A stretch of DNA of 39,675 nt from NCBI GenBank assembly GCA_016871575.1, contig VHCW01000039.1, forward strand, positions 1 through 39,675. The letters run 5' to 3'. Positions within the stretch are counted from its first letter, which is position 1; every line of letters begins with the position of its first letter. Positions 8,572-30,752 of this stretch are shown here, piece by piece. The translations under genes were made by a program, and so were the position numbers. This DNA comes from Verrucomicrobiota bacterium (GTDB taxonomy: Bacteria > Verrucomicrobiota > Verrucomicrobiia > Palsa-1439). The notes beneath the pieces are model-generated. The model was not told the origin of the DNA. It worked only from the letters and a program-made list of their open reading frames with translations, and did no database searches.

Positions 8572-8597
8572 CCTCACGCGGAGCGTGAGGAGTACTA
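8572..8597. repeat. Palindromic element, half copy (19-bp hairpin plus AGTACTA end)
   Basis: Bases 8572-8590 form a perfect 8-bp stem with a 3-base loop (cctcacgcggagcgtgagg). The following AGTACTA end is the same as the right half of the elements at 25434-25499 and 29916-29978. The left arm is not recognisable here. The TAG stop of the isomerase-like gene (8595-8597, minus strand) is formed by the last bases of the element. Confidence 0.75.
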
Positions 8598-9635
8598 TTT
8601 CCCCATCAAATGGCTGATGATGTAACGCTCCATGCCTTCGTAGTCGCGCGCGGCGATGAAGGCGGCTTCCTTCTTGCGGTTGAGCGTGCGGACTTTCTCA
8701 ACGAGCGCGAGGAAAAACTCGCGGCTATTGGCAAGATGCTTGGTCGCGTCCACCGGCTTGGTGGCGCGCATCGCTTTCACGTCGAGGCCGATAAACTCCC
8801 CCTTCTGTCCGTAGCCGGCTTCTTCGAGGACGCGGACTTGATTGAATGCGCGACGCAGGTCAACGGCGCCGAACGATTTGTCCTCGTCGAACTTCAGGCC
8901 GTTCTGGTCGTTGAGGTGGACGCTCCAGAGTTTGCCGTGGAGAAGGGCGTAGGCCATTTCGTCGGACGGATCGAGACCGGCAAGAATGGCGTGGGCGCTC
9001 TCGATGAGTCCACCGACGCGCGACGGGTCGTCGGTGCGGTAGGCGAGCGCGAGGGCGTGGCCGATGGTCGGGATGTAGGCGTGGTCCATCGGCTCGTTCG
9101 GTTTCGGCTCAATAGCGATGCGGATGCCGGGGTCGTAGGCGAGCATCTTGTTGATGGCGTCGAGGAGCCAGCCCATGGCGACGCGGGCGTTCTTGGCTTC
9201 GCGGATGTAGGTGCCTTCGCGGGCGAGCCAGAGAACCATCAAGTCGGTGCCGAGTCCGCGCATGATGTCAATCGTGCGGAAGCCGCGGTCGAGGGCGTAC
9301 TGGCGGTCAGCGGCGGAGTTCGAGGTGAAGCCGCCGTCAACGGTGCGTGCGCTGAACCAGAGCCGCGGCGCGACGAACTCGGCGACGAGACCGTGGTCGT
9401 CGAGCATACGCTTGAAGGCGCGCGCCTTGGAGATGATCTGCGCGGGCGTCATCGCGTCCATGCCGGGCACGGCGTCGTCGTCGTGGAACTGGACGCCGTC
9501 GAAGCCGAGTTTCTTGTAAAGGGGAAGCTTCTTGGCGAACGAGATTGGTTTGCGGGTTTCGGGGCCGAACGGGTCAGCGCCTTCGCTGATGTTCCAAGGG
9601 CCGAATGAGAAACGATATTGAGTGGGCTTGCTCAT
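8595..9635 (-). CDS. Xylose-isomerase-like sugar isomerase
   Basis: 346 residues, somewhat shorter than class I xylose isomerases (about 390). The N-terminus FSFGPWNISEGADPFGPETR and FHDDD (His51, Asp54) match the xylose isomerase active site. So do EPKPNEP (Glu176, Lys178), ESAH (Glu212, His215), FDED (Asp250, Asp252) and GLD (Asp285). The metal ligand corresponding to Asp245 of the Actinobacterial enzymes reads His240, so the true substrate may differ. There is no signal peptide, so it is cytoplasmic. A Shine-Dalgarno-like AAGGA lies 7 bases before the ATG. Upstream is the 77-base regulatory block shared with the Gfo/Idh gene at 15785-17149. The stop codon lies in a repeat element. Confidence 0.82.
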   Translation of the reverse strand: MSKPTQYRFSFGPWNISEGADPFGPETRKPISFAKKLPLYKKLGFDGVQFHDDDAVPGMDAMTPAQIISKARAFKRMLDDHGLVAEFVAPRLWFSARTVDGGFTSNSAADRQYALDRGFRTIDIMRGLGTDLMVLWLAREGTYIREAKNARVAMGWLLDAINKMLAYDPGIRIAIEPKPNEPMDHAYIPTIGHALALAYRTDDPSRVGGLIESAHAILAGLDPSDEMAYALLHGKLWSVHLNDQNGLKFDEDKSFGAVDLRRAFNQVRVLEEAGYGQKGEFIGLDVKAMRATKPVDATKHLANSREFFLALVEKVRTLNRKKEAAFIAARDYEGMERYIISHLMGK

Positions 9636-24248: not shown

Positions 24249-26282
24249 ATGAAACCACTACTCGCTCTGCTCATTTCTTCCTTCTTCCTTCTTCCTTCTT
24301 CTTTCGCTGCTCCGCAGCGTCCGAACGTCGTCCTGTTCCTCGTGGACGACATGGGATGGATGGATTGCGGCGCGTACGGCTCGCAGTACTACGAGACGCC
24401 GCGCATTGACGCCTTCGCGAAACAAGCGATGCGCTTCACCGACGCCTACGCGCAACCGCTTTGTTCGCCGACGCGCGCCAGTCTGCTCACCGGCAAATAC
24501 ACCGCACGCCACGGCATCACCAGCGCCAGCGGACATCAGCCGCCGCAACCGGCGGGACACAAGTTCCGGCCCGACACCGCGCCGCCGAACCAACCGATGC
24601 TCATGCCGCAAAGCAAGAACTACATGGATCCGTCCGAATACACGCTCGCCGAGGCGTTGCGCGACGCCGGCTATCGCACCGCGCACATCGGCAAATGGCA
24701 CCTCGGCCTCACGCGACCACATTGGCCGGAGCAACAAGGTTTCGACGTCGCGTGGCATTGTCATCCCGATCCCGGCCCGCCGGGCGAATACTTCTCGCCC
24801 TATGGGGTGAAGCCCGATGGCGAGCCGCGCGGTCAAAACAAGGTTGGCAACATCACCGACGGTCCAAAGGGCGAATACATCGTGGACCGCCAGGCCGCCG
24901 AGGCCGTCAAGTTCATCCAAGCCAGCAAAGACCGCCCGTTCTTCCTCAACCTCTGGTGCTACGGCGTCCACGGGCCGTGGGGACACAAGGTCGAATACAC
25001 AAAATACTTCGCCAAGAAAAAAGACCCGCGCGGTTTCCAAGGCAATCCCATCATGGCCTCGATGCTCAAGAGCGTGGACGACTGTTTCGGGCGCATCCTC
25101 GACGAACTCGACAGGCAGGGTTTGACTGACAACACGATCATTATTTTCTACTCCGACAACGGCGGCAACGTCCACAGCAACGTGCCCGATAGCGCAAAGA
25201 CAGCCAAAGCAGAGAAAAGCAAGAGCGCATTCCTCGCCGACTGGCGCAAATGGGCCGGCGACCGTCCCCCCACCGACAACACGCCGTTGCGCGACGGCAA
25301 AGCCACGCTCTACGAAGGCGGCACGCGCGTCCCGCTGATGTGGAAGTGGCCCGGCCACATTGAGCCAGGCACCACCAGCGACGCCGTCGTCGGACACATT
25401 GACCTCTACCCGACCGTGCTCGACCTCATCGAAAGTACTCATCACGCTCCGCGTGATGCTTCTTCCGGGCCGAGCCTCACGCGGAGCGTGAGGACTACTA
25501 TGGACGGCGTCAGCTACGCCGCCGTGTTGCTCGGCACCGGCAAACTTCAACGCAAAGCGTTCTTCAACTACTTCCCGCACGGACGCAGCCCCGGCCGCTG
25601 CGGCGGCGTCTGGGTGCGTTGCGGCGACTGGAAACTCTTCCGCTGGTTCGGCGCGCCGGCGACCTACGAGCTTTACAACCTCCGCGATGACCTCAGCGAA
25701 ACGAAAGACCTCGCCGCCGCCCAACCCGCGCGCGTGAAAGAACTCGACGCGCTCATTGACGCCTTCCTCGCCGACACCGGCGCGCTCTACCCGATACCGA
25801 ACCCGGCTTACAAGCCGCGTCCCGACGCTCCTGCAGGGGCCACTCCGACCGGCGACCCGACGACAGGTCTCGTCGCAAAGTCCTGCAAGCTCAAGTTGGT
25901 CGCAGGCGCATTGCGAATGGAAGCCGATGGCCGCGCGCCGTTCCTCGGCACCGCGCAACTCGGCAAACTCACCGGCCCATTCACGTTGAAACTCCGTGCC
26001 CGCAGCGCCGCCGGCGGCACCGGCAAAGTCCAATGGAAACTCTCCACACAAGACGAATTCCCCGCAACCGGCCAGACCGTCGAGTTCAAGCTGCCCGCCG
26101 GCGCCGACTGGCAAGACGTGACCGTGGCATTGCCAATTCAAGGACAACCGTCCCCGCTTCGCCTCTACCTGCCCGCCGACAAATCGCCGGTCGAAATCGA
26201 ATCCATCAAATACTTCAGCGCCGACGCCACCAAGCCCGTCCGCGTCTGGAACTTCGCCGTCGTCAAGAAGGACGGAACATGA
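24249..26282 (+). CDS. S1-family sulfatase with C-terminal beta domain and in-frame palindromic insert
   Basis: 677 residues, long for the family (about 450-520). The signal peptide MKPLLALLISSFFLLPSSFA is coded by a TTCTTCC heptamer tract. The sulfatase core has NVVLFLVDDMGW (Asp33, Asp34) and CSPTRASLLTG (Cys72, formylglycine site), then IGKWHLG and FYSDNGGN. Residues about 396-417 (STHHAPRD ... SVRTT) are coded by a palindromic repeat element just before MDGVSYAAVL. The C-terminal about 130 residues (TLKLRARSAAGGTGKVQWKL ... VRVWNFAVVKKDGT) form an added beta-sandwich-like domain shared with the sulfatase at 28884-30752. It probably removes sulfate from a polysaccharide outside the cytoplasm. 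A copy of its extreme 3' end lies at 27018-27071. Confidence 0.92.
   Translation: MKPLLALLISSFFLLPSSFAAPQRPNVVLFLVDDMGWMDCGAYGSQYYETPRIDAFAKQAMRFTDAYAQPLCSPTRASLLTGKYTARHGITSASGHQPPQPAGHKFRPDTAPPNQPMLMPQSKNYMDPSEYTLAEALRDAGYRTAHIGKWHLGLTRPHWPEQQGFDVAWHCHPDPGPPGEYFSPYGVKPDGEPRGQNKVGNITDGPKGEYIVDRQAAEAVKFIQASKDRPFFLNLWCYGVHGPWGHKVEYTKYFAKKKDPRGFQGNPIMASMLKSVDDCFGRILDELDRQGLTDNTIIIFYSDNGGNVHSNVPDSAKTAKAEKSKSAFLADWRKWAGDRPPTDNTPLRDGKATLYEGGTRVPLMWKWPGHIEPGTTSDAVVGHIDLYPTVLDLIESTHHAPRDASSGPSLTRSVRTTMDGVSYAAVLLGTGKLQRKAFFNYFPHGRSPGRCGGVWVRCGDWKLFRWFGAPATYELYNLRDDLSETKDLAAAQPARVKELDALIDAFLADTGALYPIPNPAYKPRPDAPAGATPTGDPTTGLVAKSCKLKLVAGALRMEADGRAPFLGTAQLGKLTGPFTLKLRARSAAGGTGKVQWKLSTQDEFPATGQTVEFKLPAGADWQDVTVALPIQGQPSPLRLYLPADKSPVEIESIKYFSADATKPVRVWNFAVVKKDGT
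25434..25499 (+). repeat. Palindromic element inserted in frame in a sulfatase gene
   Basis: 66 bases, 22 codons. Left hairpin catcacgctccgcgtgatg (25440-25458) and right hairpin cctcacgcggagcgtgagg (25475-25493) each have a perfect 8-bp stem and a 3-base loop. The two halves, with their AGTACTC and GACTACT ends, are also inverted repeats of each other. It codes for a Ser/Thr/Arg-rich loop without breaking the gene. Related copies lie at 29916-29978 (also in a sulfatase) and 8572-8597. Confidence 0.85.
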
Positions 26283-26339: not shown

Positions 26340-26801
26340 ATGAAGCTGTACATTGAGACTACGATCCCGAACATGCTGTTCGCTGAGGATGCACCCGAGA
26401 AGCGACGCGCCACGGAAGTGTTCTTTGCGTGGATGAGGATTTGTCGGGACGACCTGTATGTATCGGCATTGGTGGAAAGCGAACTGGCGCTTGCCCCCGA
26501 ACCGAAACGCGAACGGATGGCGCGGGCGCTGCGTCAGTTGCCATTGCAGGTCTTGCCCGTGACGGCACAAGCCGAAGCTTTGGCGAACAGTTACTTAGCG
26601 GCGGGAATCTGGACGCCCCGATCAAAGGATGATGCCGTCCATGTTGCCACTGCGGTTTGTCATGAACTGGATGTTGTCGTAAGCTGGAACATGAGAGATT
26701 TGGCCAATGTGCGGCGGGTGGCGCGGATCAATGAGTTCAATACGCGTCGCGGACTGGGCGCGATACGAATCGCCACCCCGGAGGAGGTCATGGACACATG
26801 A
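26340..26801 (+). CDS. PIN-domain protein, probable VapC-like toxin
   Basis: 153 residues. MKLYIETTIPNMLF at the start, a central ALVESEL, and SKDDAVHVATAVCHELDVVVSWNMRDLANV near residue 110-135 are the acidic motifs and folding pattern of PIN-domain ribonucleases. The first motif has Glu rather than Asp in the YIETT position, as in several PIN subfamilies. Such proteins are usually toxins that cut RNA, paired with an antitoxin. The stop overlaps the start of a 63-residue gene (ATGA at 26798-26801), so the pair is coupled, with the putative toxin first. This is the reverse of the usual vapBC order. The module sits inside the sulfatase cluster, between a sulfatase and a copy of that sulfatase's 3' end. 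Confidence 0.78.
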   Translation: MKLYIETTIPNMLFAEDAPEKRRATEVFFAWMRICRDDLYVSALVESELALAPEPKRERMARALRQLPLQVLPVTAQAEALANSYLAAGIWTPRSKDDAVHVATAVCHELDVVVSWNMRDLANVRRVARINEFNTRRGLGAIRIATPEEVMDT

Positions 26802-28883: not shown

Positions 28884-30752
28884 ATGAAACCGTTCCTCCC
28901 CATCCTCATTTCTTCCTTCTTCCTTCTTAATTCTTCTTTTTCTGCGCAGCGTCCGAATGTTCTCCTCATCTTCACCGACGACCACGGTTGGGCCGATCTC
29001 GGCGCGCAGGGCGTGGACAAGGACATCCGCACGCCCCACACCGATCAACTTGCCCGCGACGGAGTGCGTTTCACGCGCGGGTACGTGACCGGTCCCCAAT
29101 GCGTCCCATCACGCGCCGGCGTTCTCACCGGCATTCACCAGAACCGTTTCGGCGTGGATGACAACCATAAAGGACCGTTGCCGCTCAGCATTCCCACGCT
29201 GGCGACGCGCCTCAAGGCGTTCGGCTACATCAGCGGCATGAGCGGCAAATGGCATTTGGATGTTGCAGGCCCGAAAGGAGGCGCGCAGACGACGCGGATG
29301 AGTCCTGCCCACCTACCGCACGCGCATGGCTTTGATGAATACTGGTGCGGTTCCATGCGCCAGTATCACGCCTCCCACGCGCTCGACGGCACGCCATTTT
29401 CCGACGCGCCGCGTCTTGTCACCGACAACCGGTTTCGCATCACCGTCCAAACGGAAGCCGCGCTCGGATTTCTCGAACGACGGGCCAAGACACCCGATCA
29501 ACCTTGGTTCCTGTACCTGCCGTGGTTCGCGCCGCACGTGCCGCTGGAATCGCCAGAACCGTGGTTCTCGAAAACACCGGCCCACTTGCCGAAAGAACGA
29601 CGGCAGGCGTTGGCCATGATCGCGGCCATGGATGACGGCCTCGGACGAATCCGCGCCAAACTCAAAGCGATGGGACAAGAACAACGCACCCTGATCTTTT
29701 ACATCAGCGACAACGGCGCGCCGCTCAAACCCGGCGCGTGGGACGGCTCGTTGAACGCGCCGCTGATTGGCGAGAAAGGAATGCTCACCGACGGCGGTGT
29801 GCGTGTGCCATTCGTGGCCGCGTGGCCCGGCGCGTTGCCTGCCGGCAAGGTGTATGAGCATCCCGTCAGTTCGCTCGACGTGGCGGCCACGGCGGTCGCG
29901 CTGGCCGGGCTGGATAGTAGTCATCTCGCTCCGCGTGATGGATCAGCGGGGGACCTCACGCGGAGCGTGAGGAGTACATTGGACGGCGTCAACCTCATGC
30001 CGTTCCTTACCGGCGAGAAAAAGGGCGTGCCACATGATGCGCTCTACTGGCGATGGCGTTCGCAGGCCGCCGTGCTCGCGTTCCCGTGGAAACTCATCCA
30101 TCTCGGCGCCGACGAAAGTTACCTCTTCAACGTCACCGAGCCGCAAGGCGAGACGATCAATCTCATCAAAGACCACCCCGACATCGCCGCCCGGCTCGAC
30201 GCCAAGCTCAAAGCGTGGATGGCCGGTCTTCATCGTCCCGGCCCGCAAGAAAGTCTGAATCCGCAGGACAAGTATTTCTTCGACACGCACGTGGTCAAAA
30301 TCGAAGTTCCAAGCCGGTCAAAACCGGCGTCCGAAGGGACAATCCAGGGCTGGCTTTGCCGCAACGGCACGTTCGCCGTCAACAACGGCGCGCTCGTCAT
30401 TACCCCGGAGGCCAAGGGGCGTCCCTTCATCACGAATGCCGCGCTCGACCTGCCCGGCCCTCTCACTGCGGTTGTGCGCCTCCGCGCGAAACGGGCGGGA
30501 CAAGGAAGCTTCGCGTGGCGCACCAAGGAACAGAAGGATTTCATGTCCGGCAACACCGTTTCCTTCCAGTGGACTGCCTCCTCCGAGTTTCAAGAGATCA
30601 CAACACAGCTACCGGCCCAAGGCCGCGTCATTCATCTGCGGATTCATCCGTCAAAAGACAACAGCGTAGAAATCCAATCCATTGAACTGCGCGGCCAAAG
30701 ACGGAAAACCCAATCGTGGCAATTCAACGGCACACGAAAAGACGGGCCGTAA
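28884..30752 (+). CDS. S1-family sulfatase with C-terminal beta domain and in-frame palindromic insert
   Basis: 622 residues. The signal peptide MKPFLPILISSFFLLNSSFS is coded by a decayed heptamer tract. The core shows NVLLIFTDDHGW (Asp32, Asp33) and CVPSRAGVLTG (Cys73, formylglycine site), MSGKWHLD and FYISDNGAP. The loop SSHLAPRD ... TRSVRST (about residues 345-365) is coded by the palindromic element at 29916-29978 and stands directly before LDGVNLMPFL, the same place as in the sulfatase at 24249-26282. A C-terminal beta domain (about 500-622; VVRLRAKRAGQGSFAWRT ... SWQFNGTRKDGP) is related to that of the same paralogue. It follows the double aldolase gene by 2 bases. Its sulfated substrate is unknown. 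Confidence 0.92.
   Translation: MKPFLPILISSFFLLNSSFSAQRPNVLLIFTDDHGWADLGAQGVDKDIRTPHTDQLARDGVRFTRGYVTGPQCVPSRAGVLTGIHQNRFGVDDNHKGPLPLSIPTLATRLKAFGYISGMSGKWHLDVAGPKGGAQTTRMSPAHLPHAHGFDEYWCGSMRQYHASHALDGTPFSDAPRLVTDNRFRITVQTEAALGFLERRAKTPDQPWFLYLPWFAPHVPLESPEPWFSKTPAHLPKERRQALAMIAAMDDGLGRIRAKLKAMGQEQRTLIFYISDNGAPLKPGAWDGSLNAPLIGEKGMLTDGGVRVPFVAAWPGALPAGKVYEHPVSSLDVAATAVALAGLDSSHLAPRDGSAGDLTRSVRSTLDGVNLMPFLTGEKKGVPHDALYWRWRSQAAVLAFPWKLIHLGADESYLFNVTEPQGETINLIKDHPDIAARLDAKLKAWMAGLHRPGPQESLNPQDKYFFDTHVVKIEVPSRSKPASEGTIQGWLCRNGTFAVNNGALVITPEAKGRPFITNAALDLPGPLTAVVRLRAKRAGQGSFAWRTKEQKDFMSGNTVSFQWTASSEFQEITTQLPAQGRVIHLRIHPSKDNSVEIQSIELRGQRRKTQSWQFNGTRKDGP
29916..29978 (+). repeat. Palindromic element inserted in frame in a second sulfatase gene
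   Basis: 63 bases, 21 codons. The left hairpin catctcgctccgcgtgatg (29922-29940) has one stem mismatch; the right hairpin cctcacgcggagcgtgagg (29954-29972) is perfect and identical to those at 25475-25493 and 8572-8590. Ends AGTAGTC and GAGTACA. It occupies the same codon position relative to the DGV motif as the copy at 25434-25499 and is read in the same frame. Confidence 0.85.

Follow-up and report, generated by a model that had tools for sequence, protein, structure and literature searches.

In-frame REP doublets carrying GTAG tags were described in coding genes in 2013, and the genome richest in them was that of Opitutus terrae, a verrucomicrobium (Di Nocera et al., PMC3733652). The same study found two recB genes hit at about one site and TAG stop codons supplied by the tags, and described the occurrence of REP families as patchy (PMC3733652). 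The term REPIN was introduced by Bertels and Rainey in 2011 (PMC3116915). We use it for two head-to-head REP units that would form a non-autonomous miniature element, moved in trans by a RAYT (an HUH single-strand transposase). Since in-frame REP doublets have been known since PMC3733652, the case reported here is a further example of a known phenomenon, and the novelty for this group of bacteria implied by a preliminary description of the locus is not supported.

The window, i.e. the whole stretch of 39,675 nucleotides analysed here, comes from a Verrucomicrobiota bacterium and contains these features:

8572-8598, minus strand: single REP unit at the 3' end of ORF 8595-9635, the TAG stop codon (8597-8595) of which is supplied by the tag of the unit
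24249-26282, plus strand: host gene 1, a sulfatase (PF00884, PF16347) with a C-terminal beta-rich extension, in which the element forms residues 396-417
25434-25499, plus strand: REP head-to-head doublet (REPIN), 66 bp, 22 codons, in frame in the sulfatase
25434-25458, plus strand: left REP unit, tag AGTACT (GTAC form) and hairpin CATCACGC-TCC-GCGTGATG (25440-25458)
25459-25474, plus strand: doublet spacer of 16 nt, variable among copies
25475-25499, minus strand: right REP unit, tag AGTAGT (GTAG form) and hairpin CCTCACGC-TCC-GCGTGAGG (25475-25493)
28884-30752, plus strand: host gene 2, a sulfatase (PF00884) with a doublet immediately before LDGVNLMPFL
29916-29978, plus strand: second in-frame REP doublet, 63 bp, 21 codons SSHLAPRDGSAGDLTRSVRST, with one left-stem mismatch

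The sequence at 25434-25499 is a dispersed hairpin repeat of the REP/REPIN type carried in frame by a sulfatase. It reads, in order, AGTACT, an 8-3-8 hairpin, the 16-nt spacer, a second 8-3-8 hairpin and ACTACT. Both hairpins are perfect (8-bp stem, 3-nt loop), the right one (25475-25493) being CCTCACGC-GGA-GCGTGAGG on the window strand. Because the two halves are mutually inverted and differ at a single stem pair (A-T vs C-G), the whole also forms one long hairpin, with an RNA minimum free energy of -38.8 kcal/mol (z = -6.3; as stable in none of 200 shuffles) and a z of -6.9 in DNA folding. Only one of its three sense frames is open, the one read in the sulfatase, and the resulting 22 residues, STHHAPRDASSGPSLTRSVRTT, occupy positions 396-417 of the 677-aa product of ORF 24249-26282, immediately N-terminal to MDGVSYAAVL; the peptide of the element-bearing sulfatase includes APRDASSGPSLTR. 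The coordinates, the two perfect hairpins, their mutual inversion and the 22-residue in-frame reading given in the preliminary description are thus all confirmed.

The element belongs to a family present in many copies. With up to 2 mismatches, a 15-mer of the element matched 6 times in the window (0.35 expected), and the 15-mer core pattern was found at 61 sites per strand in the source genome, the reversed control giving 0. A covariance model built on the 27-nt unit, together with BLAST, gave 72 units at E <= 1e-4, spread over dozens of contigs of the 5.19-Mb genome. From the model and BLAST matches and the stretches fetched around them we resolved 43 elements, of which 32 are head-to-head doublets and the other 11 single units, so that a search proposed in the preliminary description yielded about 40 further copies. 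With these copies, and with the orthologues compared below lacking the element, neither of the two refuting outcomes named in that description came about. The unit consensus is AWAGTAST-CMTCACGC-TCC-GCGTGAKG. Its second stem pair (10-26) is A-U in 12 units, C-G in 11, G-C in 2 and unpaired in none; this consistent pairing in three forms indicates compensatory change. Of 49 units, 44 preserve GTA in the tag, and the fourth base is C in 30 of the 49 and G in 14; in the window copy the left unit has the GTAC form and the right unit the GTAG form. The canonical REP tag is GTAG, and the prevalence of GTAC counts against the REPIN reading. Spacers differ among doublets. The family displays several features of REPs: a palindrome of 20-40 bp dispersed in many copies, a predominance of inverted doublets (32/43) and a covarying stem. 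One contig (L055, C109:2300-8300) holds a local cluster of 3 doublets in about 3 kb.

The first of the two host genes encodes a sulfatase with a PF00884 match at E 3e-54 and an SGSH_C match, in which CSPTR and the other orthologue-invariant residues are intact. An AlphaFold2 model built with 33 sequences has a mean pLDDT of 84 and the fold of S1 sulfatases (Z 44.1 to 6ust over 422 residues). Modelling of the loop, also proposed beforehand, placed residues 396-417 C-terminal to helix 383-395, in a stretch that is unstructured and has a block confidence of 58-81, lower than the rest, and the loop that holds the element is probably solvent-exposed. The statement in the preliminary description that the sulfatases of the window without the element have a short loop there was incomplete, as ORF 28884-30752 also carries a doublet (29916-29978) at the homologous site. 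The source genome has a very high sulfatase load, with about 145 PF00884 matches (some of them fragments) in 5.2 Mb, perhaps some 4% of the genome by our estimate. Immediately downstream of the first sulfatase, at 26340-26801, lies a gene for a small PIN-domain protein that may act as toxin in a toxin-antitoxin pair.

Comparison with orthologues indicates what these sites look like when empty. The sulfatase-1 orthologues compared, from Verrucomicrobiota, Planctomycetota, Lentisphaerota and Kiritimatiellota (50-72% identity), lack the 22 residues, a point that an alignment suggested in the preliminary description was meant to test, and show about 10 loop residues, e.g. LGLPRPAQQK, before (L/M)DG. 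At this loop the source protein has IE followed by the 22 residues, which means that about 8 native residues are gone. Similarly, sulfatase 2 differs from orthologues 56-60% identical to it by the change of AGL-PHDSK-LDG into AGLD-[21 residues]-LDG, and an FG-GAP protein with an element has lost about 11 residues relative to a 71% identical orthologue. In GH106 rhamnosidases, the linker from VVF to GPWEV plus the next residue mostly measures 30-37 residues, with or without an element. Loss of the native loop beside the element thus appears to be a consistent pattern, with the reservation that loops vary anyway at these identities, and this loss would have followed REPIN insertion. The alignments also bear on the reading that the loop is native and palindromic by chance or through codon choice: an open frame, and nothing else, speaks for it, and it is excluded, to the point of being vanishingly improbable, by the 43 dispersed elements, intergenic ones included, and by the element-free orthologues compared.

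In the source genome, 9 of the 43 elements are intragenic and in frame, and most of their hosts are predicted extracellular or polysaccharide-degrading enzymes. Sulfatases hold four of the nine, all in one loop: two are doublets, and the other two are a right and a left half. A further three lie in one interdomain linker of GH106 rhamnosidases. The concentration of four elements in a single sulfatase loop suggests that the loop is tolerant, that it is a preferred target or that conversion took place between paralogues. We consider it rather unlikely that gene conversion or duplication between paralogues, instead of independent REPIN insertions, accounts for the recurrence as a whole. For one pair of rhamnosidases, L007 and L010 (source contigs C90 and C135), conversion is nevertheless suggested, since at about 55% protein identity their doublets are identical in the spacer, which usually varies between copies, and nearly so over about 35 nt of right flank. 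The half element of sulfatase 4, identical in kind in the source and in the orthologue from genome G013, also counts in favour of spread; the two copies of this half element (L065 2534-2560, minus strand; L138 2545-2569) lie in orthologues from two different taxonomic families. Against conversion as a general explanation, the elements of the four sulfatases are unlike one another in spacer, length and half retained, and sulfatases 1 and 2 are only about 31% identical, with element-free orthologues for both. Furthermore, the loop is also occupied in a sulfatase of genome G028 (L198; contig C16, about 953957-954097), where a doublet of a different GTAG-type REP (AGTAGCCGCGTCACTCCGTGACGCG...ACTACT) precedes LDGVDLLPF. 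G013 and G044 have GH106 genes with TCTCGC-type doublets or with peptides resembling their products, and the GH106 tree requires 7 changes of REP label, of which well-supported branches force at least 2.

Intragenic doublets also stand apart in length and frame. Of the 7, 6 have a length divisible by 3, vs 7 of the 25 other doublets (Fisher p = 0.010): these six measure 63 or 66 bp and the seventh 64, whereas the others are mostly of 64 or 70-71 bp. All seven read the left arm in one common frame, S-[STN]-[HR]-[HL]-A-P-R-D, and the other open frame of this arm is hydrophobic by GRAVY (VLITLRV). For elements without homology evidence, coding or non-coding status was called with a simple codon score, and the ambiguous ones (L019, L051, L055 at 2576 and L056 at 2559) are left out of the intragenic count. 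These data fit selection for a tolerated frame.

The distribution of the family is uneven. At E <= 0.01 we found no match in the sole sampled genome of the same genus nor in 7 of 9 other genomes of the same family, the remaining two (G003 and G005) having one weak match apiece; in another family (f4) we counted 9 to 66 units per genome in five genomes. Across the class, 13 of the 384 genomes had a match at E <= 1e-6. In one genome of family f4, a 3.5-kb contig (G044:C117) contains a gene for a 235-aa RAYT-like protein with a doublet of the source REP family on each side, i.e. a RAYT bordered by the matching REP family, the flanking copies having GTAG tags. The protein has the HUH-type motif MPNHVHL and matches NCBIfam REP_Tyr_transpos at E 1e-16, below the curated cut-off, and Y1_Tnp just below its cut-off. 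The source genome has 9 Y1_Tnp matches, and a flank scan of this 95% complete assembly found doublets of the window family beside none of them, which rules out a local cognate RAYT among these genes. Among the source proteins, the one closest to the G044 RAYT (39% identity) has a different REP family at its borders. Four of the nine matches are RAYT-type genes (L046, L047, L048 and L049 on contigs C57, C49, C33 and C68), each bordered by its own, different doublets with GTAG or GTGG tags, so that the genome contains at least five REP families. The source genome thus appears to be without a cognate transposase of the window family. With a cognate in G044 and none found in the source assembly, we infer that the family moved by RAYT-driven transposition, probably mobilised in trans by a RAYT absent from the source genome or unassembled there. 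Recent transposition in the source genome is less supported, because no RAYT found in this assembly has copies of the window family beside it.

Taken together, the element at 25434-25499 is very probably a RAYT-mobilised REPIN that settled in frame in a tolerant sulfatase loop and replaced the native one. The landing site would be the solvent-exposed loop between the helix that follows the 'DLYPTxLDL' motif and the '(L/M)DG' motif. A length that is a multiple of three, a stop-free frame and a loop that tolerates changes of length would together explain why the REPIN persists. The peptide encoded in the frame used, S-[ST]-[HR]-[HL]-A-P-R-D-x(4-6)-L-T-R-S-V-R-[ST]-T, is hydrophilic and probably flexible, and native residues upstream of the element may have been lost during or after insertion, leaving the REP peptide in place of the native loop. 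Its effect on the sulfatase is most likely neutral to slight.

It is also conceivable that the REP peptide is adaptive, as a linker or a surface patch acting e.g. in glycan binding or secretion, or that the hairpin is regulatory as DNA or RNA, but we regard this as very unlikely. The RNA hairpin is indeed very stable, the in-frame hosts are mostly of the extracellular or polysaccharide-degrading kind, and the 25-bp half element of sulfatase 4 is identical between source and G013 at 25 of 25 positions, against 78.5% identity in the DNA around it (P about 0.002). Conservation at one site in one genome pair is, however, thin evidence, and only four of the roughly 145 sulfatase matches in the source were found decorated. 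A class-wide search with the REP peptide, which misses half elements, matched 3 of 384 genomes, 2 of them (the source and G028) in the sulfatase loop, and the peptide is simply the translation of REP DNA in its open hydrophilic frame. Settlement in a tolerant loop remains our preferred reading. A tentative extension of it, which we hold to be possible rather than probable, is that in these Verrucomicrobiota REPINs serve as recurrent linker-replacement modules, different GTAG-type families repeatedly substituting, instead of just lengthening, one loop of paralogous sulfatases and one interdomain linker of GH106 rhamnosidases in the hydrophilic frame, with mobile DNA supplying a standard flexible linker.

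These genes form a natural insertion set, with one hairpin in one loop of several paralogues, beside about 140 other sulfatases and element-free orthologues. With this set one can ask whether a mobile repeat in a coding gene is no more than tolerated or provides a usable linker, and also whether RAYT-driven REPIN insertion removes target DNA.

Among the known systems, the Rickettsia palindromic elements (RPEs) put forward in the preliminary description are a reasonable parallel in so far as palindromic repeats are read in frame within genes whose proteins are likely functional (nine cases in the source genome). Membership is excluded by the tag, which is CGTC in small RPEs and GTA(C/G) here; in addition, RPEs have an alphaproteobacterial host and no known transposase (PMC3733652). 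The REP/REPIN system with its RAYT is closer, given the GTA(G/C) tag and the RAYT-flanking copies in G044. As described by Bertels and Rainey (PMC3116915) and by Nunvar et al. in 2010 (PMC2817692), REPINs share with our element the inverted doublet unit, a spacer less conserved than the ends, a long single-strand hairpin and copies that flank a RAYT; they are described there as extragenic, whereas here 9 of 43 elements lie in coding frames, in a source genome without a visible cognate RAYT. For REP-derived protein linkers, the literature searched held nothing closer than PMC3733652, and the seemingly unusual part of our case, the loop-replacing recurrence in predicted secreted hydrolase families, was not found described in it. 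The REPs of O. terrae (PMC3733652) resemble the present family in their short hairpins, unpaired tag, head-to-head doublets, 20-30 residues in frame and verrucomicrobial host, and likewise in being mostly intergenic and in supplying TAG stops from tags, as at 8597-8595 here. Unlike the O. terrae REP, which we compared by its description, the family reported here has mostly GTAC tags, and it has hit sulfatases and rhamnosidases repeatedly at a homologous site, with the native loop lost.
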